From NCBI GenBank assembly GCA_017309275.1, contig JAFKLT010000032.1:62001-126000 (forward strand): a stretch of DNA of 64,000 nucleotides, in the 5' to 3' direction. Each line of letters opens with the position of its first letter. The stretch's first letter is position 1. The stretch is from Sphingomonadales bacterium. GTDB lineage: Bacteria; Pseudomonadota; Alphaproteobacteria; Sphingomonadales; Sphingomonadaceae. The position numbers were made by a program, and so were the translations under genes. Under the pieces are notes generated by a model. That model did no database searches. It was not told the DNA's origin and worked only from the letters and a program-made list of their open reading frames with translations. Positions 37,117 to 59,973 of the stretch are shown here, piece after piece.

Positions 37117-37143
37117 TTGAAACCCGTGCGCCGGGTCGAACAT

Positions 37144-37161: not shown

Positions 37162-37166
37162 TGACG

Positions 37167-37700: not shown

Positions 37701-37726
37701 TGGCTCAACGAAAGGGAGACTCGAAG

Positions 37727-38890: not shown

Positions 38891-38892
38891 CG

Positions 38893-41093: not shown

Positions 41094-41109
41094 TCTTGCC
41101 ACCCACCTT

Positions 41110-41180: not shown

Positions 41181-41199
41181 AGAATCCGGAGATTGCCGA

Positions 41200-41982: not shown

Positions 41983-41990
41983 GTCCGGTT

Positions 41991-42091
41991 CCTCCCGTTT
42001 TCGGGAGGGGTTAGGGGAGGGCGTGTTTCCTCTCCATCAGTGCAATATTCGGGACAGGCCTTCCCCCGGCCCCTCCCGCAAGCGGGAGGGG
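41991..42091. repeat. Intergenic CCTCCCG/CGGGAGG palindrome cluster before mmsB
   Basis: Two hairpins: CCTCCCG-TTTT-CGGGAGG (41991-42008) and CCCCTCCCGC-AA-GCGGGAGGGG (42070-42091), with more GGGGAGGG/CCTTCCCCC complementary sequence between. The same family fills 59043-59151. The right arm of the second hairpin supplies the purine-rich ribosome site for mmsB, eight bases before its ATG. Confidence 0.78.
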
Positions 42092-42098
42092 AGAGACA

Positions 42099-42974
42099 AT
42101 GAAAATCGCATTCATCGGACTCGGAAACATGGGCGGCGGCATGGCCGCGAACCTTGCGAAGGCGGGGCACGAGGTGCGCGCCTTCGACCTCAGCGAAGAG
42201 GCGCTCGCCCGCGCCGTCGAAGCGGGCTGCAGCCGCGCATCGTCGGCGGCAGAGGCCGTGACCGGTGCCGAAGCCGTCGTGACCATGCTCCCTGCGGGCA
42301 AGCATGTCGCCGGCGTCTATGAAGGGGACGTCTATCCGAATGCCGCGCCGGGGACGTTGCTCCTCGATTGCTCGACGATCGATGTCGCCACTGCGCGCGC
42401 GAATATCGAGGCGGCGACAGCCAAGGGGCTCGTCGCGGTCGACGCGCCGGTGTCGGGCGGCATTGCCGCGGCCAACGCCGGCACGCTGACCTTCATGGTC
42501 GGCGGGACCGATCCGGCTTTTGCGCGCGCCGAACCGATCCTTGCCAAGATGGGCAAGGCGGTGATCCACGCGGGCGACGCCGGCGCCGGGCAGGGGGCAA
42601 AGATCTGTAACAACATGCTGCTCGGCGCCTCGATGGTCGCGACGTGCGAAACGCTTGCGCTCGCGCAGAAGCTTGGCCTCGATCCCCAGAAATTCTTCGA
42701 TATCGCTAGCGTTTCCTCGGGTCAGTGCTGGTCGCTCACCAGCTATGCGCCGCTTCCCGGCGTTGGGCCGACGACACCCGCCGACAATGGCTATCAGGGC
42801 GGTTTCGCCGCGGCGCTGATGCTGAAGGACCTGCGCCTTGCGATGGAGGCGGCCGCCAGCGTCGATGCCGACGTTCCGATGGGGACCAAGGCGCGCGAAC
42901 TTTACGAGGCCTTTGTCGAGGCCGACAAGGACGGCCGCGACTTTTCGGCGATCATCCAGACCCTGCAGGGCTGA
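42099..42974 (+). CDS. mmsB: 3-hydroxyisobutyrate dehydrogenase
   Basis: 291 aa. NAD-dependent oxidation of 3-hydroxyisobutyrate to methylmalonate semialdehyde, the substrate of MmsA. The Rossmann motif IAFIGLGNMGGGMAANLAKAG is at the N-terminus (cited as GLGNMGGGMAANL). The substrate signature DAPVSGGIAAANAGTLTFMV and the catalytic Lys in GAGQGAKICNNMLLG are all present. Last gene of the valine operon. Confidence 0.94.
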   Translation: MKIAFIGLGNMGGGMAANLAKAGHEVRAFDLSEEALARAVEAGCSRASSAAEAVTGAEAVVTMLPAGKHVAGVYEGDVYPNAAPGTLLLDCSTIDVATARANIEAATAKGLVAVDAPVSGGIAAANAGTLTFMVGGTDPAFARAEPILAKMGKAVIHAGDAGAGQGAKICNNMLLGASMVATCETLALAQKLGLDPQKFFDIASVSSGQCWSLTSYAPLPGVGPTTPADNGYQGGFAAALMLKDLRLAMEAAASVDADVPMGTKARELYEAFVEADKDGRDFSAIIQTLQG

Positions 42975-43427: not shown

Positions 43428-45461
43428 TTAGAAGCCGGCCTTCGCCGCCGCCTTTTCCTTCAGCAGCGGTGCGACCGTGAAGCCATGCTTCTCGAGCGCC
43501 GCGACGATCTTGTCGGTGCCCTCGATGCCCGCCCAGAACATCGGGCCGCCGCGATAGACCGGCCAGCCATAGCCATAGATCCACACCACATCGATGTCGC
43601 TCGCGCGCTGTGCCTTGCCTTCCGCCAGGATCAGCGCGCCCTCGTTGACCATCGGATACAGCGTGCGTTCGATGATCTCCTGATCGGTGATCTCGCGCTT
43701 TTCGATCCCGGCGCGCTTGCGGAATTCGTCGATGATCTCTTCGACGCGTGCGCTCGGCGACGGGTTCCGCTTGTCGTCATAATCGTAAAAGCCCGCCTGC
43801 TTCTTCTGGCCCCAGCGGCCTTCGGCGCACAGCGCGTCGCGGATGCTTTCGATCCGGTTCGGGTCGCGGTGCCAGCCGATGTCGACGCCCGCCAGATCGC
43901 TCATCTGGAACGGACCCATCGGCATGCCGAAATCGACATGGACCTTGTCGACCTGCGCCGGCGTCGCGCCTTCCAGCAGCAGCTTCTGCGCCTCGATCTG
44001 GCGCGGCGCGAGCATGCGGTTGCCGATGAAGCCGTGGCACACGCCCGCGACGACGGCGACCTTGCCGATCTTCTTGCCGATCGCCATCGCGGTGGCGAGC
44101 ACATCGTCGGCCGTCTTGTCGCCGCGTACGACTTCCAGCAGCTTCATCACATTGGCGGGTGAGAAGAAGTGCATGCCGACGACGTCGCCGGGGCGGCTGG
44201 TCGACGCCGCAATCTCGTTGACGTCCAGATAGCTGGTGTTCGACGCCAGGATTGCGCCGGGTTTGGCGATCGCGTCGAGCTTGCCGAAAATCTCCTTCTT
44301 GACGCCCATGTCCTCATAGACCGCCTCGATGATCAGGTCGCAGTCGGCAAGCGCGTCGAGGTTCAGCGAAGGCGTGATCAGACCCATCATCTGATCGACC
44401 TGTTCGGGCTTGAAGCGCCCCTTGGCGGCGCTTGCGTCGTAATTCTTGCGGATCACGCCCAGCCCGCGGTCCAGCGCTTCCTGCTGCATTTCCACGATCG
44501 TGCAGGCGATGCCCTTTTGCAGGAAGTTCATCATGATGCCGCCGCCCATCGTGCCGGCACCGATGATGCCGACGCGCTTGATGTCGCGCAGCTTGATGTC
44601 CTTGGGCAGGCCGTCGATCTTGGCGGCCTGGCGCTCGGCGAAGAAGATGTGCCGCTGCGCCGCCGACTGGCTGCCCATCATCAGCTTCATGAATTCCTGG
44701 CGTTCGAAGGCAAGGCCCTCGTCGAACGGAAGCCGCGTTGCGGCCTCGACGCAGGCAAGGTTCGCATAGGGGGCCTCGAAGCCGCGCCAGCGCTTTGCGT
44801 TCGCCGTCTTGAGCTGTTCGATGACGGCGGCGTCGCCGAACACCGCCCGGTCGCGGGTCGGGCGCGGGCCGTCGGCGATCTTTGCGCGGGCAAAGGCGAT
44901 GGCGTCAGCGGCCAGGCTGTCCTCGCCCGCCAGCTCGTCGACCAGGCCCATGTCCTTCGCCTTGGTGGCGGGCACGGGATCGCCGAGCGAGGTCATCGTC
45001 GCCGCGGCCTCGACTCCGACGACGCGCGGCAGGCGCTGCGTCCCGCCGGCACCCGGCAGCAGGCCAAGCTTCACTTCGGGCACGCCGAGCTTCGCCGAGG
45101 GGACGGCGACGCGATAATGACAGACGAGCGCGGTCTCCAGGCCACCGCCCAGCGCGGTGCCGTGGATCGCGGCGACGACGGGCTTGGTCGCGGCCTCGAT
45201 CATGTTGAGCACGGCGTTGAAGTCGGGGCCGCGCGGCGCCTTGCCGAATTCGCTGATGTCGGCGCCGGCGATAAAGGTCCCGCCGTCGCAGCGCAGGACG
45301 ATGGCCTTGACGCCGTCATCGGCAAGCGCGGCTTCGAAATTGCTCTTCAGCCCTTCGCGGACATGCCACGAGAGCGCGTTCACCGGCGGGTTGTTGACGA
45401 TGATGACGGCGACGTCGCCATCCTTCTGCATCGTCACGCTGACGGGGGTTTCTTCAGACAT
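43428..45461 (-). CDS. Bifunctional enoyl-CoA hydratase/3-hydroxyacyl-CoA dehydrogenase (FadJ/FadB-like)
   Basis: 677 aa from ATG 45461 with AGGAG upstream. The N-terminal crotonase domain (1-190) carries both catalytic Glu residues (GGGLE, Glu109; [13 protein letters not shown], Glu129). The NAD domain has GAGTMGGGI (301-309), the HAD motif [31 protein letters not shown] and GFIGNRML. The C-terminal domain is complete ([20 protein letters not shown]). It performs two beta-oxidation steps on the enoyl-CoA made by the operon's dehydrogenase. Last gene of the operon. Confidence 0.95.
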
Positions 45462-45481: not shown

Positions 45482-46684
45482 TCAGTCGTCGATGGCGGCG
45501 TGGACGAGCGTCTTGACCTCGCGCCGCACGGGATAGGTGGAAGAGGGCATGAGCTGGGTCATGAAGACCATGCAGATTTGTTCGACCGGATCGACGAAAA
45601 AGCCCGTCGAGAACATGCCGCCCCAATAGAAATCGCCGGCCGAACCCGGAATGCCGGCGTTTGCCGGATCGAGCGTGACCGCGAAGCCAAGGCCGAAGCC
45701 GACCCCGGCATTTTCATCCTCGGAAAAGATGCCGACGCTGTGCTGCGTCAGGTCGCCGCCGCCGACCAGATGGTTCGACGTCATCAGGTCCAGCGTCTTG
45801 CGGCTGATGATCCGCGTATCGCCCAGCTTTCCGCCGCCCAGCAGCATCAGGCAGAAACGGTGATAGTCGTGCAGCGTCGAGGCGAGCCCGCCGCCGCCCG
45901 AATGAAAGCTGCGATCCTTCGCCCAGCGGCTGCGATCGCCGCTGTCGAACAGCTTCATCTTTTCCTTGGGATCAAAGGCATAGCAGTCGGTCAGCCGGTG
46001 CTGCTGATCGGCCGGAACCTTGAACCCGGTATCGACCATGCCGAGCGGGCCGAAGATACGCTCCTGCAGGACCTGGGCAAAGGGCTTGCCCTCGATCCGT
46101 TCGATGACCGCGCCGAGGACGTCGGTCGCCATCGAATAATTCCAGTGCGCGCCGGGGTCGAACTGCAGCGGAATCTTCGCGAGACCTTCGAGGAAGCTGT
46201 CCATCGTGTAGTCGGCATCGAAATCGTCGATCCGCGCCTTGCGATAGGCGGCATCGACCGGCGTGCGCTCCTGAAAGCCATAGGTCAGCCCGGCGGTGTG
46301 CCGCAGCAGGTCGACCATGCGAACCGGCTGCGCGGCGGGGCGCGTCAGGAAGGGAACATTGCCGCCGCCGGCGACGAAGACTCCCGTGTCCCTGAACTCG
46401 GGGCAGAATTTCACGAGCGGATCGCTGAGTGCGACCTTGCCCTCTTCGACCAGCATCATGAAGGCGATGCTGGTGATCGGCTTGGTCATGCTGGCGATGC
46501 GGAAAATGGCATCGTCCTTCAGCGCTTCGCCCGGGCGCGCGTCGCCGATGCACGACAGATGCGCGATCTCGCCGCGCCGCGACACGAGCGTCGCCGCGTG
46601 CGGAAGGCGGCCGCTGTCGACATATTTGGCGGCGAGAAAGGCCGGGATGCGGTCCAGCCGCGCGGTGTCGAAACCATGACTCAC
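45482..46684 (-). CDS. Class C beta-lactamase-fold serine hydrolase
   Basis: 400 aa from GTG 46684, overlapping the aldo/keto reductase stop as GTGA, with AAGGAG ten bases upstream; the longer open frame lies inside the reductase gene. Active-site motifs of the EstB/class C fold are Ser65-x-x-Lys68 (SMTK) and Tyr183 in NYSMATD. There is no signal peptide, so it is a cytoplasmic esterase or lactonase rather than a resistance enzyme. In this operon it could open a lactone or ester of the catabolised acid. The substrate is unknown. Confidence 0.86.
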
Positions 46685-47628
46685 GAAACGCGAACTCCTT
46701 CGAGAATGGCGGCAGCTTCGGCGAGCAGCGCGGGATCGATCGCAAGGTCGGCCGCCGCCGCGGTTTCGCGCAACTGCTGCGGCCGGCTCGCGCCGACTAT
46801 CGCGCTCGTGATTCCCGGCTGCGCCAGCACCCATGCGATGGCGAGCTGCGCCATCGAGCACTCGGCTTTGGCGGCGACGTCGCTCAGGCTCTGGACTGCT
46901 TCCAGGATCGGGTCGGTCAGGAAATTGCTCATGAAGTGCGCGTCGCCCGTCGTGGCGCGGCTGTCGGCCGGCGGCGTCGCGCCCGGTCGATATTTGCCGC
47001 TGAGCACGCCTTGCGCGAGCGGCGACCAGACGATCTGGCCGATTCCGTTCGCGATGCAGATCGGGATCACCTTCGCCTCCGGGCGGCGGTGGAGCAGGCT
47101 GTATTGCGGCTGGCTCGACACGAATTTGATGTTGGGCGGGGCCAGCGCGACCGCCGCTTCGATCTGTTCGGGCGACCATTCGGAAAAGCCGATCGCGCGC
47201 GCCTTGCCGCTGCGCACCACCTCCGACAGGGCTTCCATCGTTTCTTCGAGCGGCGTTTCAGGGTCATAGCGATGGCATTGGTACAGATCGACATAGTCGG
47301 TCCGCAGGCGCGCCAGGCTGGCATCGATCTGCTTGGCGACCTGGGCTCGTGACAGCCCGCGGTCGGTTTCGGTCATCGGAAAGAACAGCTTGGTCGCCAG
47401 GACATAGGAATCGCGCACCCGATCCTTCAGCACGTCGCCGAGGAAGCTTTCCGCCGCGCCGCGACCGTAAATGTTCGCGGTGTCGATGAAATTGATGCCC
47501 GAATCGAAGGCGGCGTCGATGCAGGCCCTGCCTTCGCTGTCGTCGACCTCGACGCCATAGGTCAGCCAACTGCCGAGGCAGATTGCCGAAACCTCGATCC
47601 CGCTATCGCCCAGCTGCCGATATTGCAT
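46681..47628 (-). CDS. Aldo/keto reductase
   Basis: 315 aa, TIM-barrel NADPH oxidoreductase of the YghZ/Kv-beta type. The catalytic tetrad is visible: Asp49, Tyr54 ([11 protein letters not shown]), Lys80 (LATKLFF) and His119 (LYQCHRYDP). The cofactor region is [15 protein letters not shown] and the C-terminal [14 protein letters not shown]. Expected to interconvert a carbonyl and alcohol in the operon's pathway. It is coupled to the downstream serine hydrolase by overlap. Confidence 0.92.
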
Positions 47629-47655: not shown

Positions 47656-48458
<803 letters not shown>

Positions 48459-48462
<4 letters not shown>

Positions 48463-49235
48463 GCGCCTCCCGAAATCGTGGCGCCGCCATCGCAGACGAT
48501 GGTCTGGCCGGTGGTGAATGCCCCCGCCTTGCTGGCGAGAAAGACTGCGGCGCCTGCGATCTCGTGCGGCTCGCCGATGCGCTTGAGCGTCGACGCGGCG
48601 GTCGAGCGGCGCAGATTCTCTTCATTTTCCCAAAGCGCGCGCGCCATGTCGGTGCGGATCAGGCCCGGCGCGATGCAGTTGACGCGCACGCCCTTCGGCC
48701 CGAACTCGACCGAGAAATTGCGCGCGACCTGCATGTCGGCGGCTTTGGAAATGCCATAGGCGCCGATGATCGGCGATCCCTTGAGTCCGCCGATCGAGCT
48801 GATGATCGTGATCGACCCTTCGCCGCGCTCCAGCATCTCGGGCGCGACCATCGTGATCAACCAGTGGTTGGACAATATATTATTATCCATAATCTTACGA
48901 AACTGATCGTCGGTAATGCCGAGGCCGGGACCATAATAGGGGTTCGACGCGGCATTGCAGACGAGCGCGGTGATCTTGCCGAATGCGCGGCGCGTCTCGT
49001 CGACCAGATGCTGGAGATCGTCCTTCGACGAGATGTTCGCCGCCACCGCGATCGCGGTACCGTCGCCATGCTTCGCGTTGATCGCTGCCGCGGTGGCGTC
49101 GCAGGCGTCCTGCTTGCGGCTGGAAATCACGACCTTCGCACCCTGTTCGGCCATCGCCTCGGCCGTCGCCTTGCCGATGCCGCGCGACGATCCGGTGATC
49201 AGCGCGACCTGGCCGCTCATGTCGAACAGGCTCAT
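48459..49235 (-). CDS. Short-chain dehydrogenase/reductase (DHRS4-like)
   Basis: 258 aa from ATG 49235 overlapping the kinase stop; the longer frame inside the kinase gene was rejected. Motifs: TGSSRGIG at the N-terminus, [10 protein letters not shown] in place of NNAG, Ser in [12 protein letters not shown] and Tyr/Lys in [10 protein letters not shown]. Arg in SSRKQDA suggests NADP(H) use. It belongs to the same operon and is paired with the second SDR of different cofactor type, so the two may act at different steps. Confidence 0.91.
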
Positions 49236-50305
49236 GCGCCGGCTTTCTTGGCGAAGTCCCATGCCTTTTCGGCGAGCGGCAGGACGCGTTCGGACATGGC
49301 CTTGGCATGGGCGGAGGACGCGGTGCCGTCGATGACGCGCTTCTTGATCCCCTGCATGATCCCCGCGAGGCGGAAGAAGTTGTAGGCGAAATACCAGTTC
49401 ATATCGGGCACGCCATCGCGGCCGGTGGCCTGGCAGTAACGCTCGACCACCTCGTCGAGCTCGGGAATGCCGAGCGCCGCGCGGTCGAGGTCCATCACCC
49501 CCGAACGGCCGCCATTCTCGGTCACCCAGGCCATCGCGACATAGGTGAAATCGGCCAGCGGATCGCCCAGCGTCGATAGCTCCCAGTCGAGCACTGCGAG
49601 CACTTCGGCGCGATCCTTGGCAAAGATCATGTTGTCGATGCGATAATCGCCATGGACGACGCTGGTGCGCGTCTGATCGGGCAAGGTGGCGGGCAGCCAT
49701 TCGATCAGCCGCTCCATCTCGTCCATCGTTTCGGTCTCGGACAGTCTGTACTGCTTCGTCCAGCGATCGACCTGGCGGCCGAAATAATTGCCGGGCTTGC
49801 CGAAATCGCTCAGGCCCGCCGCCTCGACATCGACCGCGTGCAGCGCGGCCAGCGTGTCGATCATCGCGAAATAGGTCGCGCGCCGCTCCTCGGGCGTCGC
49901 GCCGGGCATCGACCCGTCCCAGATGGTGCGGCCGTCGACCATCCCCATGACATAGAACCAGCTGCCGACCACATCGTCTTCGGTGCAGAGGCCATATTGG
50001 CGTGCCACCGGGAAACCCGACTTATACAGGCCAGCCTGCACCTTATACTCGCGGTCGACCGCGTGGGCGGAGGGCAGCAGCGGGCCGAAGGGCTTGCGGC
50101 GCAGCACATAATTGCCCGACGGCGCCGAGATCTTGTACGTCGGGTTCGACTGGCCACCGGCGAACTTGCCCTGCGTCAGCGGACCCTGGAAGCCTTCGAC
50201 ATTGGCCTCCATCCAAGCCGTCAGCTTTGCCTCGTCGAGAACATCCGCACCCTCCGGTGCTACCGTTCCGCTGAACGCCTTCTGCGCATCGATTGCTTCG
50301 GTCAT
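49232..50305 (-). CDS. APH-family phosphotransferase (ACAD10/11- and LvaA-like acyl-CoA kinase)
   Basis: 357 aa, protein-kinase-like fold: GGQSNPTYKI (50-59) is the nucleotide loop, HGDYRIDN (218-225) the catalytic loop and LDWELSTLGDP (239-249) the metal-binding DFG equivalent. GGQSN and HGDYRIDNM are typical of the phosphotransferases fused to acyl-CoA dehydrogenase in animal ACAD10/ACAD11 and of LvaA in levulinate catabolism. These phosphorylate the 4-hydroxy group of 4-hydroxyacyl-CoAs. The presence of an ACAD in the operon supports that role rather than antibiotic resistance. Coupled by ATGA on both sides. Confidence 0.88.
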   Translation of the reverse strand: MTEAIDAQKAFSGTVAPEGADVLDEAKLTAWMEANVEGFQGPLTQGKFAGGQSNPTYKISAPSGNYVLRRKPFGPLLPSAHAVDREYKVQAGLYKSGFPVARQYGLCTEDDVVGSWFYVMGMVDGRTIWDGSMPGATPEERRATYFAMIDTLAALHAVDVEAAGLSDFGKPGNYFGRQVDRWTKQYRLSETETMDEMERLIEWLPATLPDQTRTSVVHGDYRIDNMIFAKDRAEVLAVLDWELSTLGDPLADFTYVAMAWVTENGGRSGVMDLDRAALGIPELDEVVERYCQATGRDGVPDMNWYFAYNFFRLAGIMQGIKKRVIDGTASSAHAKAMSERVLPLAEKAWDFAKKAGA

Positions 50306-51393
50306 TGGTTGAATACGATCACCGACCGTGCGGCGTCGCCCTTCTTCATCTTGTCGAATCCATCGTTGATTTGCTCGAGCGGGATCGTCTCGGCGACGAT
50401 GCTGTCGAGGTCGAGCAGGCCGCGGAGGTAGAAATCGACCAGACGCGGAATGTCGACGGGGAAGCGGTTGCCGCCCATGATCGCACCCTGCAGCTTCTTG
50501 CCCGACAGCAGGTCCATTGCGGTGAGGCCAACTTTTTCGGAGAGCGGCATCATGCCGAGGATGGTCGCGGTACCGCCGCGGCGGAGCGAGGCGACCGCCA
50601 GGCTGGCCGAGGCTGGACGCCCCACCGCCTCGATCGCATGGTCGACGCCGCCCTTCGTCAGTTCGACGATCTGCTTTGCGGCATCGTCGGCGAGCGCGTC
50701 GACGACGTCGGTCGCGCCCAGCTTCTTCGCGAGCGCGCGCTTTTCGGGGACCGGGTCGGCGGCGATGATGCGCCCCGCGCCTGCAATCTTCGCCGCATTG
50801 ATCGTCGCCAGGCCGACGCCGCCGCAGCCGACGACCGCGACGGTTTCACCCGGCGTCACCTTGCACGCGTTGAAGATGGTGCCCGCGCCCGTCGTCACTG
50901 CGCAGCCGATCACCGCGGCGCGGTCGAGCGGCATGTCGGGGTTGATCGCGACACAGGCATGTTCGTGAACCAGCATCACCTCGGAAAAGGCGCTGAGGTT
51001 CAGCATCTGGTTGACCGGCGATCCGTCGGGGCGCGTGATGCGCGGCGCCGATCCAGGCACGCGTCGCGTTTCGCCGCCGAGGCACAGCGACATGCGGCCG
51101 GACACGCAGAACTCGCAGTGACCGCAAAAGGCGGACAGGCAGGTGACGACCGCGTCGCCGGGCTTCACCGTGCGCACTTCGCTGCCGACCGCCTCGACGA
51201 TGCCGGCCGCCTCATGGCCCGGAATCGCGGGCAATGGGTGCGGATAGGCGCCGTCGATGAAATGCAGGTCCGAATGGCAGAGTCCGCAGGCAACGGTGCG
51301 AATCCGTACTTCGTGCGGGCCGGGCTTGTCGACGATCACATCTTCGATGACGAGCGGCTTGCCGGGTTCGATCAGGATCGCGGCTTTGGTCAA
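50302..51393 (-). CDS. Zinc-dependent alcohol dehydrogenase (class III-like MDR)
   Basis: 363 aa from TTG 51393 (read as Met, then TKAAILIEPGKP), with GGAGAG three bases upstream; no ATG fits as well. Catalytic zinc ligands Cys39 (CGLCHSD) and His60 (PGHEAAG), structural zinc Cys90, 93, 96 and 104 (CGHCEFC...C), and the NAD-binding motif VVGCGGVGLATINAAKIAG (cited by GCGGVGLA). It resembles Rv3086/AdhD-like proteins and formaldehyde-dehydrogenase relatives. Probable role: oxidising an alcohol of the pathway. It sits between the ACAD and the kinase. Confidence 0.92.
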   Translation of the reverse strand: MTKAAILIEPGKPLVIEDVIVDKPGPHEVRIRTVACGLCHSDLHFIDGAYPHPLPAIPGHEAAGIVEAVGSEVRTVKPGDAVVTCLSAFCGHCEFCVSGRMSLCLGGETRRVPGSAPRITRPDGSPVNQMLNLSAFSEVMLVHEHACVAINPDMPLDRAAVIGCAVTTGAGTIFNACKVTPGETVAVVGCGGVGLATINAAKIAGAGRIIAADPVPEKRALAKKLGATDVVDALADDAAKQIVELTKGGVDHAIEAVGRPASASLAVASLRRGGTATILGMMPLSEKVGLTAMDLLSGKKLQGAIMGGNRFPVDIPRLVDFYLRGLLDLDSIVAETIPLEQINDGFDKMKKGDAARSVIVFNQ

Positions 51394-51415
51394 CTTCTCT
51401 CTCCAGCTATCAGGT

Positions 51416-52708
51416 TTAGCGCGAAACGCCGACGTCGCCCGACGAAAAGCCGGGGTCGGTGGCAGCCGCCGAATGCTTGGCGAGCTCGATGCGTGAGATG
51501 GCGCGCGCATGAACCTCGTCCGGGCCGTCGGCCAGGCGCAGGGTGCGCTGGCCCGCATACATCTTGGCCAGACCGTAATCGTCGCTGACGCCGCCGCCAC
51601 CGTGCGCCTGGATCGCGTCGTCGATGATCTGCAGCGCCATGTTCGGTGCCTGAACCTTGATCATCGCGATTTCGGCTGCGGCCGACTTGTTGCCGACCTT
51701 GTCCATCATGTCGGCCGCCTTCAGGCACAGCAGGCGCGTCATCTCGATATCGATGCGGGCGCGGGCGATCCGCTGTTCCCAGACGCTGTGCTCGGCGATC
51801 GTCTTGCCGAATGCGACGCGCGATTGCAGCCGCTTGCACATGCGCTCCAGCGCTTCCTCGGCGACGCCGATCGTGCGCATGCAGTGGTGGATACGGCCCG
51901 GGCCAAGGCGGCCCTGCGCGATTTCGAACCCGCGACCCTCACCCAGCAGCATCGCTTCCTCGGCGTTGACGCGGACGTCCTTCAGCTCGACCTCCATATG
52001 GCCGTGCGGCGCGTCGTCATACCCGAAGACGGGCAGGTGGCGCAGGATGTTGACCCCCGGCGCGTCGGCGGGAACGACCAGCATCGATTGCTGCTGGTGA
52101 CGCTTGGCGCCGAAATCGGTCTTGCCCATCACGATCAGCACCTTGCAGCGCGGATCGCCCAGTCCCGATGACCACCATTTGCGGCCGTTGATGACATAAT
52201 CGTCGCCATCGCGTTCGATCCGCGTCTCGATATTCGTCGCGTCGGACGATGCGACCGCGGGTTCGGTCATCAGGAAGGCCGACCGGATCTCGCCTTTCAT
52301 CAGCGGGCCGAGATATTTTTCCTTCTGCGCACGCGTGCCATAGCGGTGGAACACTTCCATGTTGCCGGTGTCGGGCGCCGAACAGTTGAACACCTCGCTG
52401 GCAAAGCCGACGCGGCCCATCTCTTCCGCGCACAGCGCATATTCCAGATTGGTCAGGCCCGGCCCATCGAACTCGAACGTCTCTTCGACATGATGATGCG
52501 CGGCCGACTTGGGCGGCATGAACAGGTTCCAGATGCCCGCGGCCTTTGCCTCGGCCTTCAGGTCGTCGACGATCTGGATGACTTTCCAGCGATCGCCCGC
52601 CGCATCCTGTTCCTTATAAGTGGGGACCGCCGGGCGAACCTTGCGCTCGATGAATTCGCGAACCCGGCCCTGCCAATGCTTCTGCCGGTCGGTAAGATCG
52701 AAGTCCAT
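51416..52708 (-). CDS. Acyl-CoA dehydrogenase, ACAD10/ACAD11-like
   Basis: 430 aa from ATG 52708 ([19 protein letters not shown]), with AAGGA seven bases upstream. The sequence has the long-form traits of the ACAD10/11 C-terminal domain and Lva[70 protein letters not shown] (cited as [12 protein letters not shown]) and [17 protein letters not shown]. Family members remove the 4-phosphate as they form the enoyl-CoA. First gene of the eight-gene operon, preceded by the TTTACG...GTAAAC palindrome. Confidence 0.91.
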
Positions 52709-52819: not shown

Positions 52820-54271
52820 TTACGGCACTCCCGCTTCGCTATCGGCGGCAGCTTGCGCGGTCGAGGCGAGGGCGGCGAGCCGTGCCTCATGGCTGGCCCG
52901 ATCGATGGCATAGCGGCGCAGGCCCGTGGCCGCGGCGAGGGCAATCAGGACCATCAGTCCGGCGAAAATCCACGCCATCGTGGTCGCGGTGCTCGCCGGC
53001 CAATCCTCGGGCCGGATCCGATCGCCCAGGCCGACATAGGCGACGAGCTGGCCGACCAGAAAGATACCGAGCGCCTGTCCGAATTTCTGGACCATCAGAT
53101 AGCCGGCGAAAAAGACACCCTCGATACGCGTGCCATGTTCGACCTCATGCGCCTCGACGATCTCCGCCACCATCGACGCGGCGGAGATGTTGGCGACGAT
53201 CAGTCCGAACAGCGAGACGGTCTGCAGCGCAAGCAGCAATATCATCGACGTCCAGCCGCCCAGCTCGGGCCACCAGCCGAGGTTGCGCGCCGCATAAGGC
53301 AGAAAGGCGACCGCGCCGCTGAACAGCACGGCAACGATCGCCGTGTCGCGCTTGCCGAAATGGCGATGCGCGCGCCCGACGACCAGAAAGGCACCGAACA
53401 CCGCGACCGCCAGGCCCAGCGGATACCAGGAAAGCTGCGCGTCGGTCAGCCGCCAGACATACAGCATCACATAATTGGTCGCCGAGATCGTCGTCGCATA
53501 GGCGGTGATGATGAACAGCGCGCCGCTTGCCAGCGCGACGAAGGCCGGGTTGCGAAAGGCGAGCGCGATCTCTGCCAGCATCGATTTGCCGTGCGTGGCC
53601 TGCGCCGTCGGGGGCAGCGATAAAATCCGCCGATGCTGTCCGATCGCCGAACCCAGCGTCGAGACGAGGATCAGCGTCGCGCCGAACAGGCCGAACGCCG
53701 AATAGCCCGACGGATCGAGCAGGCCGCTTTTCGTCGGATCGTCCGACTTCAGGAAATAGCCATAGGCCAGCGCGGTCGCAGCGAGCCCGCCGAGCCAGCC
53801 GAACAGAAAGCGAAAGCGCATCAGCGTCGTGCGCTCGTCATAATCGCGCGTCAGCTCGGCGACGAGCGAGATCGACGGGATTTCGCATGCCGAAACAAGG
53901 ATGCGCACCGCGACGACGTTGATCACCAGGCCCAGCGTCGAGTGGGTGGCTATGTCGGGTGATACCCAGAGCAGCGCCCAGGCGATCGCCATCGGCACTG
54001 CGGCGCCATAGAGCCATGGGAGCCGCCGTCCGATCCGCGTCCGCGTCGCGTCCGACAACCGGCCGATCATCGGATCGACCATCGCGTCGATCACCATCGC
54101 GCCGATCAGGACCAGCGACACGGTGCGCGGATCGAAGCCGAGCACCTGGTTGTAATAGATCATGAAGAAGGTGGTGAGCCCCGCCTCCTTGATTCCAAGC
54201 GTGACCGAGCCGAGGCCGTGTGCCAGCTTGATCCGGGTGGGCAGCGCGCCGGGCAGGGTCTGGACGGTCAT
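52820..54271 (-). CDS. GPH-family (MelB-like) transporter 2
   Basis: 483 aa, about 12 transmembrane helices. The glycoside-pentoside-hexuronide:cation symporter signature is DAMVDPMIGRLSDATRTRIGRR, with SACEIPSISLVAELTRDYDERT (both cited by key residues D-x-x-x-D-P-x-x-G-x-x-x-D). It is coupled to the upstream paralogue by ATGA. A substrate cannot be named; neighbours suggest a carboxylic acid or its glycoside rather than a sugar. Confidence 0.88.
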   Translation of the reverse strand: MTVQTLPGALPTRIKLAHGLGSVTLGIKEAGLTTFFMIYYNQVLGFDPRTVSLVLIGAMVIDAMVDPMIGRLSDATRTRIGRRLPWLYGAAVPMAIAWALLWVSPDIATHSTLGLVINVVAVRILVSACEIPSISLVAELTRDYDERTTLMRFRFLFGWLGGLAATALAYGYFLKSDDPTKSGLLDPSGYSAFGLFGATLILVSTLGSAIGQHRRILSLPPTAQATHGKSMLAEIALAFRNPAFVALASGALFIITAYATTISATNYVMLYVWRLTDAQLSWYPLGLAVAVFGAFLVVGRAHRHFGKRDTAIVAVLFSGAVAFLPYAARNLGWWPELGGWTSMILLLALQTVSLFGLIVANISAASMVAEIVEAHEVEHGTRIEGVFFAGYLMVQKFGQALGIFLVGQLVAYVGLGDRIRPEDWPASTATTMAWIFAGLMVLIALAAATGLRRYAIDRASHEARLAALASTAQAAADSEAGVP

Positions 54272-55710
54272 TGGAGGCCCGTTGCTTCGGACGCCGCGAG
54301 CGCGGCGATGCGCGCCTCATGGTCGGCGCGGTTGATCGGAAAGCGCGAGAAGGTCCAGGTCGAGGCGATCGTCGCGATCACGACGATAATGCTGTAGCTG
54401 ATGACCAGCCGGTCGATCACCTGGGGCTCGACATGGCCCGGGATGGCCTTTGACGGCAGGCCCGACAGGCTGATCAGCAGGCCGGTCAGGCCGATGCCCA
54501 ACGCCGTCGCGCATTTCTGAACGAACATCCAGCCGGCGGCGAAGACCCCCTCGGTGCGGCGACCGGTCTCGATCTGCGAGGCTTCGACGACGTCCGCCAG
54601 CATCGACTGGCCCGAGATCATCACCATCACCGCATTGACGTTCGATACCAGGATGAAGGCCATCAGCAGATTGCTGGAAAAGGCCGAACCGGTGGCCGGC
54701 CAATGGCCCGACAGGAACAAGGCGAAGGGCACGACCCAGAAGAAGGTGCTGATCATGCCGCACACCACTGCGGTCTTCTTCTTGCCGAAGCGGCGGTGCA
54801 GCGGCTGCACCAGCACGAACGATCCGATCACGCTGACCATCAGCAGCCAGGGCAGCGCGGCGAAGGCGCCTTCGGAGAAACGCCAGACATAAAGATAGAG
54901 GAAGTTCGAAATGGTGAAGGTCATCTGCGTGCTCGAAATCGCGATCAGCGACGCGCCGAGCAGGATCAGCGCCGCAGGGTGGCGGAGCGATTCCCATATC
55001 TCGGCAAAAAGACGTTTCGGCGAACCCGGTGCCGGCTTGGACGCCGGCAGATGGGCGATACGGCGATGCTGACCCAGCGCCGAGACAAGCACCGTCGCCG
55101 CCATGATGATCGCGCCGCACAGTCCGTAAAGCCAATAGCCCGATGGATTGAGCTGACCGAACTCATGCGTCGCATCGGGACGCAGGAAGACGGTGTTGGC
55201 GAGGAAGAAAACGAGCAGGCCCCCGCCCCAGGCGAAGAGAAAGCGAAAGCGAGTCAGCGCGGTGCGCTCGTCATAATCGCTCGTCAGTTCGGCGACGAGC
55301 GATTGCGACGGCACTTCGCAGCATGAAACGAGCGTGCGCACCAGCACCGCGACGACGACCAGATAGGCAAAGATGTGGGTGTGATCCTCTGGCGGCGACC
55401 ACAGCAGCATCCAGGCGAGGCCGAGCGGGATCGGCGCCAGGTACAGCCACGGATGGCGGCGGCCCCAACGCGTATAGGTGCGGTCGGAGAAATAGCCGAT
55501 CAGCGGATCGACGAAGGCGTCGGCGAGCAGCGCGAACATCAGCGCCAGCGAAACCAGGCTGGCGTCCAGTCCGACGACCTGGCTATAGAAAATCAGCAGA
55601 AAGGTCGAAAAGCCGTTGTCCTTGACGCCATAGGCGACGCTGCCGAGGCCATGGAACATCTTGAGGCGCAGCGGAAGCCGCGCCTCCGGTTGCGCGGCCG
55701 TCGCGGTCAC
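54268..55710 (-). CDS. GPH-family (MelB-like) transporter 1
   Basis: 480 aa from GTG 55710, overlapping the SDR stop as GTGA. Again ~12 transmembrane helices with DAFVDPLIGYFSDRTYTRWG and SCCEVPSQSLVAELTSDYDERT-type blocks. The two genes share motif after motif and are clearly tandem paralogues. They may form a heteromer or have complementary substrates. Second gene of SDR-GPH1-GPH2. Confidence 0.88.
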   Translation of the reverse strand: MTATAAQPEARLPLRLKMFHGLGSVAYGVKDNGFSTFLLIFYSQVVGLDASLVSLALMFALLADAFVDPLIGYFSDRTYTRWGRRHPWLYLAPIPLGLAWMLLWSPPEDHTHIFAYLVVVAVLVRTLVSCCEVPSQSLVAELTSDYDERTALTRFRFLFAWGGGLLVFFLANTVFLRPDATHEFGQLNPSGYWLYGLCGAIIMAATVLVSALGQHRRIAHLPASKPAPGSPKRLFAEIWESLRHPAALILLGASLIAISSTQMTFTISNFLYLYVWRFSEGAFAALPWLLMVSVIGSFVLVQPLHRRFGKKKTAVVCGMISTFFWVVPFALFLSGHWPATGSAFSSNLLMAFILVSNVNAVMVMISGQSMLADVVEASQIETGRRTEGVFAAGWMFVQKCATALGIGLTGLLISLSGLPSKAIPGHVEPQVIDRLVISYSIIVVIATIASTWTFSRFPINRADHEARIAALAASEATGLQ

Positions 55711-56564
55711 GCGGCGGCTCCGGCCTTCGCCGCTTCCTCCATAGCTGTCAGGGCATCGAACATGCCCGGCGTTTCCTTGTCCCACGCGTGCCGCTGGCCG
55801 ATCGTCAGCCCGCCGTCGACCAGCAGGTGCGTACCCGTCATGAACGACGATTCCTCGCTCGCCAGATAGGCGACGGCGTTGGCGATATCCTCGGGCATGC
55901 CGCCGCGTGCGACGGGCTGCGCCTGCGCGCTCATCTGCGCGATCACGGCATTGGCCTGACCCTTCATCTCGTCGGGCACGTCGAGCGAGGCGGTGAAGAT
56001 GTTGGTATTGATGAAGCCGGGGCAGATGGCGTTCACGCGGATGCCATATTGCGCCAGGTCGGTCGCCGCGACCTTGGACAGGTGGAGCACGCCGGCCTTT
56101 GCGACGGCATAGGCAATCGGCGAATAGCCGGCGCCCAGCGCGGCGACGCTCGCCGTGTTGACGATCGACGCGCCCTTGCGTCCCTTCATGTGCGGCACGG
56201 CATAGCGGATGCCCATCGCGACCGATTTCAGGACGAGGTCCATCGTGCGGTCCCAGCCTTCGGGGCTGATCTCGTCGATCGGGGCGCGGTCGCCGCCCGC
56301 GGCGGCATTGTTGAAGACGATGTCGATCCCGCCGGCCTTCGCCGCGGCTTCGTTCATCAGCGCCTCGATATCGGCGGGCCGCGTGACGTCGCAGCGGACG
56401 AAATCGATCTTGCCGTTCGATTCCGCGGCCAGCGCCCGCCCGCCTGCTTCGTCGATGTCGGCGGCAAAGACATGCGCGCCCTCGGCCGCGAGTTTCAGCA
56501 CCGCTGCCTTGCCGATACCCGATGCTGCGCCGGTGACCACGGCGACCTTGCCTGCGAATCGCAT
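55707..56564 (-). CDS. Short-chain dehydrogenase/reductase
   Basis: 285 aa. Motifs TGAASGIG (residues 12-19), NNAAAGGDRAPIDE in place of NNAG, Ser in VNTASVAALGAGY and Tyr/Lys in AYAVAKAGVLHL. Asp in FAADIDEAGG marks NAD(H) preference. First gene of the transporter operon and divergent from the ACAD pair, so it likely oxidises the imported compound or its first product. Confidence 0.9.
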   Translation of the reverse strand: MRFAGKVAVVTGAASGIGKAAVLKLAAEGAHVFAADIDEAGGRALAAESNGKIDFVRCDVTRPADIEALMNEAAAKAGGIDIVFNNAAAGGDRAPIDEISPEGWDRTMDLVLKSVAMGIRYAVPHMKGRKGASIVNTASVAALGAGYSPIAYAVAKAGVLHLSKVAATDLAQYGIRVNAICPGFINTNIFTASLDVPDEMKGQANAVIAQMSAQAQPVARGGMPEDIANAVAYLASEESSFMTGTHLLVDGGLTIGQRHAWDKETPGMFDALTAMEEAAKAGAAA

Positions 56565-56734: not shown

Positions 56735-57916
56735 ATGAGCGATCTGGACGCCTTCCGCGCCGAAGTGCGCGCGTGGCTGGAAGCCAATTGTCCCCCCGAA
56801 ATGCGCGAACCGATCCGAGACGAGGATGACGTCTGCTGGGGCGGCCGCAAATGGGTGTTCAAGAACGAAGCCCAGAAGCAATGGCTCGAAGCCTGCGTGT
56901 CAAAGGGCTATACCGTTCCCGACTGGCCCAAGGCCTATGGCGGCGCCGGCCTGACGGCCGAGCAGACCAAGGTCCTGAAACAGGAAATGAAGCGCATCAA
57001 TGCGCGCTCGCCGCTCGACAGCTTCGGCATCTGGATGCTCGGCCCCGCGCTGCTGCAATTCGGCACCGAAGAGCAGAAGGTTCATTATCTGAACCAGATC
57101 GCCCGCGGCGAAATCCGCTGGTGCCAGGGCTATTCCGAACCGGGTTCGGGCAGCGACCTCGTCTCGCTCCAGACCTTCGGCGAGGACAAGGGCGATCATT
57201 GGGTCGTCAACGGATCGAAGATCTGGACGAGCTATGCCGACAAGGCCGACTGGATCTTCTGCCTTGTCCGTACCGACAAGGCGAACAAATATCAGGGCAT
57301 CACCTTCATGCTCTTCGACATGGAGAGCAAGGGCGTCACCACCAAGCCGATCCTGCTGATTTCCGGCAACTCGCCCTTCTGCGAGACCTTCTTCGACGAT
57401 GTCGAGGTGCCGAAGACGCAGTTCGTCGGCGAACTAAACCGGGGCTGGGACGTCGCCAAATATCTGCTCGGCCACGAACGCGAGATGATCTCGGGCGGCG
57501 GCGCGGGCGGCGATATGGTCAGCATCGGCGCGCTGTTCGCGAAGTCGCTGGGACGCAACGATCATGGCGAGCTCGACGATCCGATCCTGCGCGCCGAAAT
57601 GGCGGCGTTCGACGTCGACGTCTTTGCCTATCGTGCGATGGGCGAACGCTTCATGGACATGTGGAAGACCGGCCGCGCGCATCCGGCCTCGTCGAACATG
57701 ATGAAATATGTCGGCACCGAACTCAACAAGCGCCGGCATGAACTCGTCATGTCGGGCGGCGGCAGCGACGCGCTCGAATGGGACAGCCCGGAAACCAAGG
57801 GCGGCGCCCGGCCGCGCGGTTGGCTTCGCACCAAGGCCAATTCGATCGAAGGCGGGACGAGCGAAGTCATGCTCAACGTCATCGCCAAGCGTATCCTCGA
57901 CCTGCCGGGAGCCTGA
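56735..57916 (+). CDS. Acyl-CoA dehydrogenase, large/alpha subunit of a probable heteromeric pair
   Basis: 393 aa. Motifs: CQGYSEPGSGSDLVSLQT, WVVNGSKIWTSYADKADWIF (flavin/substrate wall), the FAD region GHEREMISGGGAGGD and the C-terminal IEGGTSEVMLNVIAKRILDLPG (cited as EGGTSEVMLNVIA). It resembles PimC-type and steroid-degrading heteromeric ACADs. The next gene, three bases on, encodes the partner. Expected to desaturate a bulky or long acyl-CoA. First gene of ACAD-ACAD-SDR. Confidence 0.91.
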   Translation: MSDLDAFRAEVRAWLEANCPPEMREPIRDEDDVCWGGRKWVFKNEAQKQWLEACVSKGYTVPDWPKAYGGAGLTAEQTKVLKQEMKRINARSPLDSFGIWMLGPALLQFGTEEQKVHYLNQIARGEIRWCQGYSEPGSGSDLVSLQTFGEDKGDHWVVNGSKIWTSYADKADWIFCLVRTDKANKYQGITFMLFDMESKGVTTKPILLISGNSPFCETFFDDVEVPKTQFVGELNRGWDVAKYLLGHEREMISGGGAGGDMVSIGALFAKSLGRNDHGELDDPILRAEMAAFDVDVFAYRAMGERFMDMWKTGRAHPASSNMMKYVGTELNKRRHELVMSGGGSDALEWDSPETKGGARPRGWLRTKANSIEGGTSEVMLNVIAKRILDLPGA

Positions 57917-57919: not shown

Positions 57920-59038
57920 ATGCCGCTGTATCACAATGACGACCAGGCGATGCTCAAGGACAGCGTCGCTCCCTTCGTGGCCGAACAGGCGCCGGTGGCG
58001 CATCTGCGCAAGCTGCGCGATCAGGCCGACGCAACCGGCTTTTCGCGCGACCTCTGGGCGCAGTTCGTCGAGATGGGTCTGCCGGGCATGCTCGTGCCCG
58101 AGGAGCATGGCGGGCTCGGCATGGGGCATATCGAGGCGGGCATCGTGCTCGAGGAGATCGGCCGCAACCTGACGCCGTCGCCCTTTCTGTCGACCAGCGT
58201 CGGCGCGGTCGCGGCGCTTGCCAAGGCTGGCGGCACGCAGGCGGCGCGCTGGCTGCCTGCGATCGCAGGTGGCGAGGCCATCGTCGCGCTCGCGATCGAC
58301 GAGGGGGCAAAGCACCGCCCCGACCGGATCGCCACCACCGCGACGCGCGCCGGGAACGGCTTCCGCCTCGACGGCAAGAAAAGCTTCGTGCTCCACGGCC
58401 ATGTCGCCGACATGAGCATCGTCGCGGCCAGGACCGACGGCGGCATTACGCTGTTTGCGGTGCCGAAGGATGCAAAGGGCCTGACCGCCGATCCGCGCCG
58501 TCTGGTCGATTCCAGCCTCGCCAGCCATGTCACGCTCGACGGTGTCGAAGTCGATGCCGACGCAGTGATCGGAGAGGTCGATGCGGGCGGCGATGTCCTC
58601 GACGCGCTTCTCGCGGCGACGCGTACCGGCGCCGCGGCCGAGATGGTCGGCGTCGGCCAGGGCGCGATGGACATGACCGTCACGTACCTCAAGGAACGCA
58701 AGCAGTTCGGCAAGCTGATCGGCGAGTTCCAGGCGCTCCAGCATCGCGCCGCGCATCTCTATGGCGAGATGGAGGTCGCGCGCGCGACCGTGATGAAGGC
58801 GCAGGAGCTTCTCGACCAGGGCAGCGACGGTGCGCGGTTGATGGTCTCGGTCGCCAAGGCGAAGGCCGGCCGTGCCGCGAATCTTGCGGTGCGCGAAGGT
58901 GTCCAGATGCATGGCGGCATCGGCATGACCGACGAATATGACATCGGCCTGTATATGAAGCGCGACCGCGCGCTCGCCGAATTTATGGGCGACGTGCATT
59001 ATCACATCGACCAGGTCGCCCGGATGAACGGTTACTGA
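57920..59038 (+). CDS. Acyl-CoA dehydrogenase, small/beta subunit of the pair
   Basis: 372 aa. ACAD fold with VPEEHGGLGMGHIEAGIVLEEIG (cited as GLGMGHIEAGIV), GAAAEMVGVGQGAMDMTVTY and MHGGIGMTDEYDIGLYMKRD. It lacks the C-terminal EGT/EGG-E block, as in the non-catalytic chain of alpha2beta2 ACADs such as ChsE/PimD types. It therefore probably completes one active site with the preceding gene product rather than acting alone. Confidence 0.88.
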   Translation: MPLYHNDDQAMLKDSVAPFVAEQAPVAHLRKLRDQADATGFSRDLWAQFVEMGLPGMLVPEEHGGLGMGHIEAGIVLEEIGRNLTPSPFLSTSVGAVAALAKAGGTQAARWLPAIAGGEAIVALAIDEGAKHRPDRIATTATRAGNGFRLDGKKSFVLHGHVADMSIVAARTDGGITLFAVPKDAKGLTADPRRLVDSSLASHVTLDGVEVDADAVIGEVDAGGDVLDALLAATRTGAAAEMVGVGQGAMDMTVTYLKERKQFGKLIGEFQALQHRAAHLYGEMEVARATVMKAQELLDQGSDGARLMVSVAKAKAGRAANLAVREGVQMHGGIGMTDEYDIGLYMKRDRALAEFMGDVHYHIDQVARMNGY

Positions 59039-59169: not shown

Positions 59170-59973
59170 ATGAATCTCCAGGACATGTTCGGCCTCAACG
59201 GCCGCATCGCGCTCGTCACCGGCGGGTCGCGCGGCATCGGCAAGATGATCGTCGAGGGCTATCTCGCTGCGGGCGTCGAGCGCGTCTATATTTCCGCGCG
59301 CAAGACCGCGCAGATCGAGGAAGCGGTTGCCGATTTCGAAACGCGCTACCCCGGCAAGGTCATCGGCCTTCCCGTCGACCTTTCGACCGTCGAGGGGTGC
59401 CGCGCGCTCGCGAAGGAATTGGAAGCGCGCGAAGAGCGGCTCGACATCCTCGTCAACAATGCAGGCGCGGCATGGGGCGAACCTTTCGAGGGGTTCCCCG
59501 AGGCCGGCTGGGACAAGGTGATGGACATTAACGTCAAGTCGCCCTTTTTCCTGACGCAGGCGCTGCACGGGCTGATGAAGGCGGCGGGTACGCCCGAACG
59601 TCCGGCAAAGGTCATCAACATCGGGTCGATCGACGGCCTGCGCCTGAATCCGTGGGAAACCTACAGCTATCATGCATCGAAGGCGGCGATCCTCTATCTG
59701 ACCAAGCGCCTCGCGGCGCGACTGGTGGAGGATAATATCATTGTCACCGCGATCGCGCCGGGCGCGTTCCAGTCGGACATGAACAAGGCGGCGCGCGACC
59801 ATGGCGAGGCCGTTGCAAAGAGCATCCCGACGAAGCGCATCGGTGTGCCGGAAGATATGGCAGGCGCCGCCATTTTCCTGGCGTCGAAGGCGGGCGACTA
59901 TGTCGTTGGCGACACGATCGCGGTCGATGGCGGTCTCGTTTACGGCGACCTGAAGACCAGCATCGACGCCTGA
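59170..59973 (+). CDS. Short-chain dehydrogenase/reductase
   Basis: 267 aa. Cofactor motif TGGSRGIG near residues 17-24, NNAGAAWGEP, Ser in NIGSIDGLRLNP and Tyr/Lys in SYHASKAAILYL. Arg in ISARKTA suggests NADP(H). Resembles FabG-like and RhlG-like reductases. It follows the ACAD pair and a repeat; it may be co-transcribed. Role: reduction or oxidation of a 3-oxo/hydroxy intermediate in the local pathway. Confidence 0.9.
   Translation: MNLQDMFGLNGRIALVTGGSRGIGKMIVEGYLAAGVERVYISARKTAQIEEAVADFETRYPGKVIGLPVDLSTVEGCRALAKELEAREERLDILVNNAGAAWGEPFEGFPEAGWDKVMDINVKSPFFLTQALHGLMKAAGTPERPAKVINIGSIDGLRLNPWETYSYHASKAAILYLTKRLAARLVEDNIIVTAIAPGAFQSDMNKAARDHGEAVAKSIPTKRIGVPEDMAGAAIFLASKAGDYVVGDTIAVDGGLVYGDLKTSIDA

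Follow-up and report, generated by a model that had tools for sequence, protein, structure and literature searches.

The 64,000-nucleotide stretch of DNA analysed here, referred to below as the window, is part of contig JAFKLT010000032.1 (positions 62,001 to 126,000, forward strand) of a Sphingomonadales bacterium (assembly GCA_017309275.1), whose genome totals 5.1 Mb. From 43.4 to 56.6 kb, eleven genes follow one another in the same direction on its minus strand, with 4-base overlaps between four neighbouring pairs; they encode in order a short-chain dehydrogenase/reductase (SDR3), two MFS_2 transporters, an acyl-CoA dehydrogenase (ACAD), a zinc-dependent alcohol dehydrogenase (Zn-ADH), a kinase, two further short-chain dehydrogenases (SDR1 and SDR2), an aldo-keto reductase (AKR), a beta-lactamase-fold esterase and a FadJ-type protein. 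A divergent run on the plus strand (56.7–60.0 kb) encodes two acyl-CoA dehydrogenase subunits and SDR4. Pfam was run on all 16 genes between 42.1 and 60.6 kb, and the gene at 60.1 kb had no match. The core of the locus consists of three minus-strand genes, transcribed in the order ACAD (51416..52708, 430 aa), Zn-ADH (50302..51393, start approximate; 363 aa with a TTG start; Pfam ADH_N and ADH_zinc_N) and kinase (49232..50305, 357 aa), with a 22-base gap between the first two and a 4-base overlap between the last two. An earlier reading of this DNA from its letters alone (the sequence-only reading) had placed the kinase and the ACAD in one operon with the Zn-ADH as the only gene between them, and open reading frames (ORFs), Pfam matches and linkage confirm this; the two SDRs, AKR, serine hydrolase and FadJ that it named as neighbours are also present by Pfam. 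The kinase and the ACAD are two ORFs with the ADH gene between them and not one fused chain. By analogy with ACAD10 and ACAD11, these genes very probably encode the enzymes of the ACAD10/11 reaction as two separate bacterial polypeptides within a conserved catabolic module.

The window ACAD contains the acyl-CoA dehydrogenase N, middle and C domains of Pfam. Among solved structures it matched ACAD11 (8v3u, 437.7 bits; 2wbi, 434.4 bits) and 4hr3 (422.9 bits), whereas its best solved relative outside the ACAD10/11 type, FadE3, scored 133.5 bits; over the aligned positions it is 57% identical to ACAD11 (8v3u/8v3v, read as the mouse protein). In ACAD11 the 4-phospho group is reported to be held by R626, H634 and R637, changes of which cause the phospho-intermediate to accumulate, and D753 to serve as the base (PMC12440821; this and the other papers given by PMC number are cited from excerpts). 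In our alignment R626, R631, H634, R637 and D753 are all present in the window ACAD, whereas four conventional ACADs used as controls, viz. acdL, acdS and an isobutyryl-CoA-type enzyme from the window and an isovaleryl-CoA-type enzyme from elsewhere in this genome (the isobutyryl and isovaleryl types were assigned by eye), all have R631 but none has any of the other four residues. The motif R.GPGR.HH..R was found in 103 of the 103 distinct ACAD relatives that were gathered (at least 45% identity), and a DGPDEVH-like motif in 102 of them. The ACADs of two loci (L251 and L252) were missed by the narrow motif, yet in the alignment they keep all five residues, as does the ACAD of another locus (L188). 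In the ACAD tree, the window protein branched with ACAD11 in a clade of 30 rows with a Shimodaira–Hasegawa-like approximate likelihood-ratio (SH-aLRT) support of 99, and LvaC and the conventional ACADs fell outside this clade. The window ACAD is thus best read as an ACAD10/11-type enzyme, for which an FAD-dependent elimination of phosphate from a 4-phosphoacyl-CoA is predicted.

The kinase matched the APH family of Pfam (PF01636, 170 bits), and the GGQSN...HGDYRIDN pattern noticed in the sequence-only reading is present as FAGGQSNPTYK and VVHGDYRIDNM. Its scores against solved structures were 391 bits for 3dxp, which was deposited as a 'putative acyl-CoA dehydrogenase' but here aligns as a kinase, and 246 bits for ACAD11, to which it is 39% identical over the aligned positions. 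By ACAD11 numbering, the catalytic residues D220 and N225 and the CoA-contacting R176 are all present in the alignment, and R176 is missing from the three LvaA-type rows. In the kinase tree, the window protein was part of a 24-row clade that includes ACAD11 (SH-aLRT 99), while LvaA belonged to a separate clade of eight rows (SH-aLRT 100). The trees comprised 47 of 169 kinase rows and 48 of 147 ACAD rows, and gathered stretches with an internal stop were left out. The ACAD10/11 type proposed for both proteins is therefore borne out by residues, identities and clades, and neither protein was placed away from both the ACAD10/11 and the Lva groups, since each lies in the ACAD11 clade. ACAD10 and ACAD11 are described as performing this chemistry (PMC12440821; PMC11342911), and a Burkholderia kinase (Q63VL0) and ACAD orthologue are reported each to substitute for the matching domain of ACAD10 (PMC11342911). 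In the light of ACAD10/11 and of these assayed bacterial orthologues, the kinase is best read as an ACAD10/11-type enzyme with a predicted 4-hydroxyacyl-CoA kinase activity.

The association of these genes was examined in the best 80 of 581 confirmed kinase loci on genome contigs, the denominators below being the loci with enough flanking sequence. All 74 loci with at least 1.2 kb of upstream sequence have the ADH gene immediately before the kinase, and 68 of the 69 with at least 2.6 kb have the ACAD gene no more than 1.6 kb upstream; because of this regularity their association is not due to chance. The nearest named relatives of the kinase among these loci are from Sphingopyxis, with up to 94% identity. 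Kinase orthologues with 83–95% identity, one of them partial, were found in all 35 other searched genomes of the same genus, and in 11 of 24 genomes of the same order a kinase was detected at E ≤ 1e-100. At the same threshold, an ACAD of this type was present in 129 of 398 genomes of a phylum sample, in which the window's family (own genome included) accounts for 16 positive genomes out of 19. Twenty-nine ACAD loci of this sample were fetched, which were best matches with the own genome excluded, and a kinase match stood beside the ACAD in 24. The split kinase/ACAD pair is thus common in bacteria and not a peculiarity of the window. An ADH gene lies between ACAD and kinase in 13 of these 24 paired loci, which are all 13 of the 13 fetched from the window's family, and as far as sampled the ADH is this family's addition.

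The remaining genes of the locus differ in how regularly they accompany the kinase. The divergent plus-strand genes acdL (56735..57916; acyl-CoA dehydrogenase, large-type subunit), acdS (57920..59038; small-type subunit) and that for SDR4 (59170..59973, 267 aa) were each found in 63 of 63 loci, acdL being conserved with the operon. Upstream of the ACAD on the minus strand, MFS_2 transporter 1 (54268..55722, start codon not fixed) was present in 59 of 63 loci, SDR3 (55707..56564, 285 aa) in 53 and MFS_2 transporter 2 (52820..54271) in 6. Downstream of the kinase, on the same strand, follow SDR1 (48459..49235, 258 aa; 175 bits to DHRS4), SDR2 (47656..48462, 268 aa), which by Pfam and linkage is a recurrent member of the module, AKR (46681..47628, 315 aa; Pfam), the beta-lactamase-fold serine esterase (45482..46690, start codon not fixed) and the FadJ-type enoyl-CoA hydratase/3-hydroxyacyl-CoA dehydrogenase (43428..45461, 677 aa; Pfam). 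AKR lies near the kinase in only 9 of 67 loci; it was rejected as a pathway gene owing to this sporadic occurrence and is probably not part of the core. SDR1 adjoins the kinase in 51 of 80 loci. Outside this set of loci, two members of family f14 (L188 and L189) have relatives of the esterase (40–42%), SDR1 (71%), SDR2 (57–58%), kinase (55%) and ACAD (73%), with no ADH in the neighbourhood and with genes not all on the same strand, and in one genus (g131) 29 of 30 loci have an SDR1 relative (37.6–39.8%) after a kinase that is about 36% identical.

Related gene sets were also found on plasmids, of which four were chosen by hand, and not at random, from 40 listed matches (290 overall). A plasmid of Croceicoccus marinus (L249) carries relatives of the kinase (63%), SDR1 (57%), SDR2 (56%), FadJ (61%), acdL (67%) and acdS (59%) together with a thioesterase, and one of Novosphingobium capsulatum (L250) carries those of the ACAD (71%), kinase (56%), SDR1 (68%), SDR2 (58%) and FadJ (65%) together with a CoA ligase, two further ACADs that are only 36% and 34% identical to acdL and acdS, and a third ACAD. 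The other two plasmids have less of the set: FadJ (44%), ACAD (58%) and kinase (49%) in Sphingobium herbicidovorans, and only kinase (50%) and ACAD (49%) in Ruegeria sp. THAF33. The kinases of N. capsulatum and S. herbicidovorans have cytochrome P450 genes no more than 9 kb away. What L249 and L250 have in common with the window is a single run of genes for the kinase, SDR1, SDR2, FadJ and further ACADs; unlike the window, neither has a Zn-ADH beside the kinase, and a ligase is additional in L250 and a thioesterase in L249. The best evidence that SDR1, SDR2, FadJ and the kinase/ACAD pair work together is this reassembly of the set at unlinked places. As regards the gene combination singled out in the sequence-only reading, the two SDRs and FadJ do recur with the kinase on two plasmids, on one of them with a close ACAD pair, but AKR does not belong to the recurrent set.

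The same genome contains further genes of this type. On contig C101 (L125:7504-14071) a gene for an ACAD10/11-type protein (72% identical to the window ACAD) follows genes for a second FadJ (63%), a ligase, a thiolase and a ChsH2-type OB protein; its kinase may be supplied from another locus, for example that of the window. The C101 sequence was considered as a broken close paralogue and this was rejected, for two TGA codons were flagged but a 412-aa ORF is open and the match extends beyond its end. A stop codon was flagged in a paralogue match on contig C31. A second kinase/ACAD10-11 pair lies on contig C61 (14500-31500, L122), where some genes were named by eye: on one side of the pair are an FMO-like monooxygenase and a TetR-like gene, and on the other an isovaleryl-type ACAD, a ligase, a carboxyltransferase, an enoyl-CoA hydratase and a biotin carboxylase. 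Whether a branched 4-hydroxy acid is processed here by a route resembling that of leucine or of terpenes is posed as a question.

Of the accessory proteins, the Zn-ADH is of the liver/class III type by its structure matches and scored 323.8 bits against the NCBIfam model for NDMA-dependent ADH, under the cut-off of 440. The nearest solved relative of the esterase is 7pp3 ('Esterase', 364 bits), and from this match it could open an ester or a lactone. When compared with LvaD of an operon described below (L245), the four SDRs of the window are alike (32–36% identity), the highest value being that of SDR4, which lies outside the operon, and SDR1 is no nearer to LvaD than the other three. Since SDR1 adjoins the kinase in several lineages, linkage makes it the best candidate for the step from 4-oxoacyl-CoA to 4-hydroxyacyl-CoA. 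The best solved relatives of acdL and acdS are the two subunits of one complex, Tcur3483 (152 bits) and Tcur3481 (129.2 bits), respectively, and acdS scored nearly as well against isovaleryl-CoA dehydrogenase (128.1 bits). Downstream of the operon and convergent with it, an apparent valine-degradation run occupies 35536-42974 on the plus strand; Pfam identifies an aldehyde dehydrogenase, an ACAD and a 3-hydroxyisobutyrate-dehydrogenase type among its products, and two enoyl-CoA hydratase-like proteins were recognised by eye.

The sequence-only reading had compared the pair with both ACAD10/11 and the levulinate (lva) system of Pseudomonas. Three loci (L245–L247) from a genus that is perhaps Pseudomonas were called lva operons by their gene order and families. 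In each, a regulator gene is followed by those for a kinase (352 aa), a 118-aa protein, an ACAD (390 aa, the ORF called in L247 being shorter), an SDR and a ligase; Pfam identifies a PrpR/sigma-54 activator, an SDR and an AMP-binding ligase in L245. The regulator of L248, from the same genus, is of this kind too, and a histidine phosphatase takes the position of the small protein, a layout like that described for P. citronellolis (PMC6692424). The 118-aa protein belongs to PF19802 (DUF6285) in both operons tested (L245 and L246), and LvaB is most likely this DUF6285 protein. The window kinase and ACAD are 26% and 33% identical to LvaA and LvaC of L245–L248 by blastp, and 22% and 32% in the multiple alignment. 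The comparison with ACAD10/11 thus held for both proteins, but these are not close to LvaA and LvaC, and the lva operon was rejected as the closest relative in view of these identities and the separate clades. That the combination of genes is unlike the lva operon was correct: no PF19802 match was obtained in the window's genome at E 0.01, although one is present in another species of the genus (G029), and neither an LvaE-type ligase nor a sigma-54 regulator was found among the 16 genes scanned with Pfam.

Some observations on the lva branch itself may be added. The identities between L248 and L245 (LvaD 67%, LvaC 74%, LvaA 54%) fit those published for P. citronellolis and KT2440 (67, 78 and 59; PMC6692424) in a good but not exact manner. 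ACAD10 and ACAD11 are stated to be 62% and 56% identical to LvaC (PMC11342911), which does not fit the 31–34% identity to ACAD11 that we find for the ACADs of L245–L248; a stand-alone ACAD from the genus of these loci is 57% identical to ACAD11, near the published LvaC figures. Fusions of an APH kinase with DUF6285 occur in two genomes of the window's family, in ORFs of 475 aa (L155:1435-2862, minus) and 463 aa (L158:400-1791, plus), the latter followed by an ACAD gene, and a pull-down of LvaA with LvaB cited in PMC6692424 agrees with these natural fusions. Genes of phosphatase families adjoin the kinase in L248 (9480-10304, histidine phosphatase) and L203 (12630-13409, SurE); they recall the HAD domain of ACAD10 and are perhaps a recurrent brake on the phospho-intermediate.

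From these results a pathway can be proposed. An MFS_2 carrier would import a carboxylic acid, which the beta-lactamase-fold esterase may free from an ester or lactone, and a ligase whose gene lies elsewhere would convert it to its CoA thioester. An SDR, likeliest SDR1, would interconvert the 4-oxo- and 4-hydroxyacyl-CoA, as LvaD is described to do in making 4-hydroxyacyl-CoA from 4-oxoacyl-CoA (PMC6692424), and the kinase, with the Asp of HGDYRIDN as the base, would phosphorylate the 4-hydroxyl group at the expense of ATP, as its homologues do. According to PMC11342911, ACAD10/11 then abstract the proton from C2, transfer a hydride to FAD and lose phosphate to give a 2,4-dienoyl-CoA, after which the hydride is returned to C5 and no external electron acceptor is needed. 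Because the ACAD11 residues are kept, we infer the same mechanism for the window pair: the ACAD would grip the phosphate by its Arg/His/Arg cluster, the catalytic Asp would remove the C2 proton, and with FAD as an internal redox shuttle phosphate would be eliminated to leave a 2-enoyl-CoA without net oxidation. FadJ would hydrate and oxidise this product and pass it to thiolysis, and by their linkage acdL/acdS and Zn-ADH presumably act elsewhere in the same pathway. The 4-hydroxyacyl-CoA pathway suggested in the sequence-only reading is retained as the best reading of the active-site residues, without gamma-hydroxybutyryl-CoA among its likely substrates, and the acid probably has at least five carbons and is perhaps branched or cyclic.

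Of the other explanations for this locus, the one furthest from the above holds that the genes are chance neighbours, with an antibiotic or small-molecule kinase of the broad APH family beside an ordinary beta-oxidation dehydrogenase. Weak NCBIfam matches of the kinase to APH(3') and thiamine kinase (29.9 and 26.2 bits) point this way, but they lie far from the cut-offs of 205 and 299.45, for which reason an antibiotic-type kinase was rejected; moreover, the pair is found together in each of the 13 loci fetched from the window's family, and its two proteins place independently with the fused animal enzyme, so that this explanation is hardly credible. A pathway for 1,4-butanediol or 4-hydroxybutyrate, in which the Zn-ADH would oxidise the diol and the kinase and ACAD would make crotonyl-CoA from 4-hydroxybutyryl-CoA, accounts for the Zn-ADH in mid-operon and the terminal FadJ. 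However, the operon showed no aldehyde dehydrogenase gene, and a four-carbon acid has no C5 to which the hydride of a 2,4-dienoyl-CoA route could return (PMC11342911); if the published mechanism is right, 4-hydroxybutyryl-CoA is therefore an unlikely substrate, and we regard this pathway as highly improbable. Somewhat less improbable, but still very unlikely, is an lva-type operon in which 4-oxopentanoate, once activated, would be reduced to 4-hydroxyvaleryl-CoA by an SDR, after which a phosphate is added and removed. The logic of the reactions is the same, SDRs are present, and three aligned LvaC-type ACADs also hold the phosphate-pocket residues; against this stand the lack of a DUF6285 match in the genome, the position outside the operon of the SDR nearest to LvaD, and the fact that no ligase, acetate-type permease or sigma-54 regulator was recognised beside the operon.

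A further possibility is a special case of the ACAD10/11 explanation and concerns the nature of the substrate. The locus could degrade a ring-derived (steroid-, terpenoid- or alicycle-like) hydroxyacyl-CoA, with acdL/acdS forming an alpha2beta2 ACAD that accepts bulky substrates and with the kinase/ACAD pair stripping the hydroxyl that blocks beta-oxidation. Heteromeric ACADs are described in steroid side-chain degradation (PMC12882949; PMC8399759), in excerpts that name no ACAD10/11 pair. The match of acdL/acdS to the Tcur3483/Tcur3481 complex, the presence in Croceicoccus of homologues of both subunits beside genes for the kinase, SDR1, SDR2 and FadJ, the ChsH2-type OB protein and thiolase between the ACAD10/11-type gene and the ligase on C101, and the P450 genes near two plasmid kinases all agree with such a substrate. 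On the other side, acdS is almost equally close to isovaleryl-CoA dehydrogenase, the PimC/PimD and IpdE2 models score far under their cut-offs, the two neighbouring N. capsulatum ACADs that were tested are only 36% and 34% identical to acdL/acdS, and the presence of the kinase in every searched genome of the genus suggests a common substrate. We consider a ring-derived substrate possible but rather unlikely, and more doubtful still the wider proposal that the pair is the hydroxyl-removing heart of a conserved sphingomonad pathway for bulky (ring-derived or branched) hydroxyacyl-CoAs, with a heteromeric ACAD and an in-operon Zn-ADH.

With regard to the ACAD10/11 reading itself, a number of observations weigh against it or narrow what it can say. 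The pocket residues are common to the whole clade and are uninformative on chain length or ring content. In another genome, an ACAD beside another APH kinase and a DUF6285 protein (G435_DUF) lacks four of the pocket and catalytic residues, and because of this case linkage to a kinase alone proves nothing. Conversely, the C101 gene has no kinase, so that kinase and ACAD are not always together; none of the four ACADs in the L249 stretch is of the ACAD10/11 type; and 5 of the 29 phylum-sample ACAD loci have no kinase match within 1.5 kb. The 11 kinase–ACAD loci from outside the window's family have no ADH between the two genes, and the Zn-ADH is without a place in the known ACAD10/11 route. Downstream of the kinase the neighbourhood is variable (SDR1 in 44, SDR2 in 45, esterase in 45 and FadJ in 39 of 67 loci), and the run stops at the kinase in both Novosphingobium loci that were viewed closely (L097 and L114). 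Neither a CoA ligase nor a thiolase gene was seen in the operon by Pfam on the neighbouring genes. Position 86 (the CoA-contacting R86 of PMC12440821) is a Phe in ACAD11 as numbered here; an Arg beside the helix-C Glu (DRE) is present in both the window kinase and ACAD11, its identity with R86 being uncertain. Lastly, both trees are quick IQ-TREE analyses with SH-aLRT values only, without bootstrap, and with long-branch warnings: the ACAD11 row lies on a long branch (1.33) in the kinase tree, and no branch of the ACAD tree sets the four outgroup rows apart on one side.

The role of ACAD10 and ACAD11 in opening 4-hydroxy acids to beta-oxidation in mammals is a recent finding (papers of 2024–2025), and the best described bacterial case so far is the levulinate operon. 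The present results separate two bacterial branches that the sequence-only reading treats together, one of the LvaA/LvaB/LvaC kind, where the kinase can occur with or fused to DUF6285, and an ACAD10/11-like one, which has no DUF6285 in the window's genome and whose neighbours are SDRs and FadJ, joined by an ADH in the window's family. The enzymes and the assays of bacterial orthologues are already known (PMC11342911); in open-licence PMC papers we found no description of a module with a fixed ADH, recurrent SDR, FadJ and ACAD partners and no LvaB. A gene set that is fixed and has been reassembled repeatedly limits where the substrate need be sought and supplies the domains of the animal enzymes as separate proteins, and the recurrence of part of it in related bacteria makes the natural substrate a testable matter. 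If a bulky substrate were confirmed, the ACAD10/11 reaction would be a general bacterial means of removing hydroxyls from blocked acyl-CoAs, of which the animal enzymes represent one use.

In comparison with known systems, the locus shares with the lva operon a kinase, a predicted phosphate-eliminating enzyme of the ACAD family, whose pocket residues are also found in LvaC-type proteins, and an SDR; it differs in having no adjacent ligase and no LvaB-family match, and in its additional Zn-ADH, esterase, FadJ and heteromeric-looking ACAD. To mammalian ACAD10/ACAD11, as judged by the ACAD11 sequence only, it is similar in the subfamilies of both kinase and ACAD and in their catalytic and pocket residues, whereas its proteins are unfused, the ACAD gene comes first, a Zn-ADH gene lies between the two and there is no HAD domain. 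The assayed bacterial orthologues of the ACAD10 domains resemble it, by their description in PMC11342911, in that the kinase and the ACAD are separate proteins.

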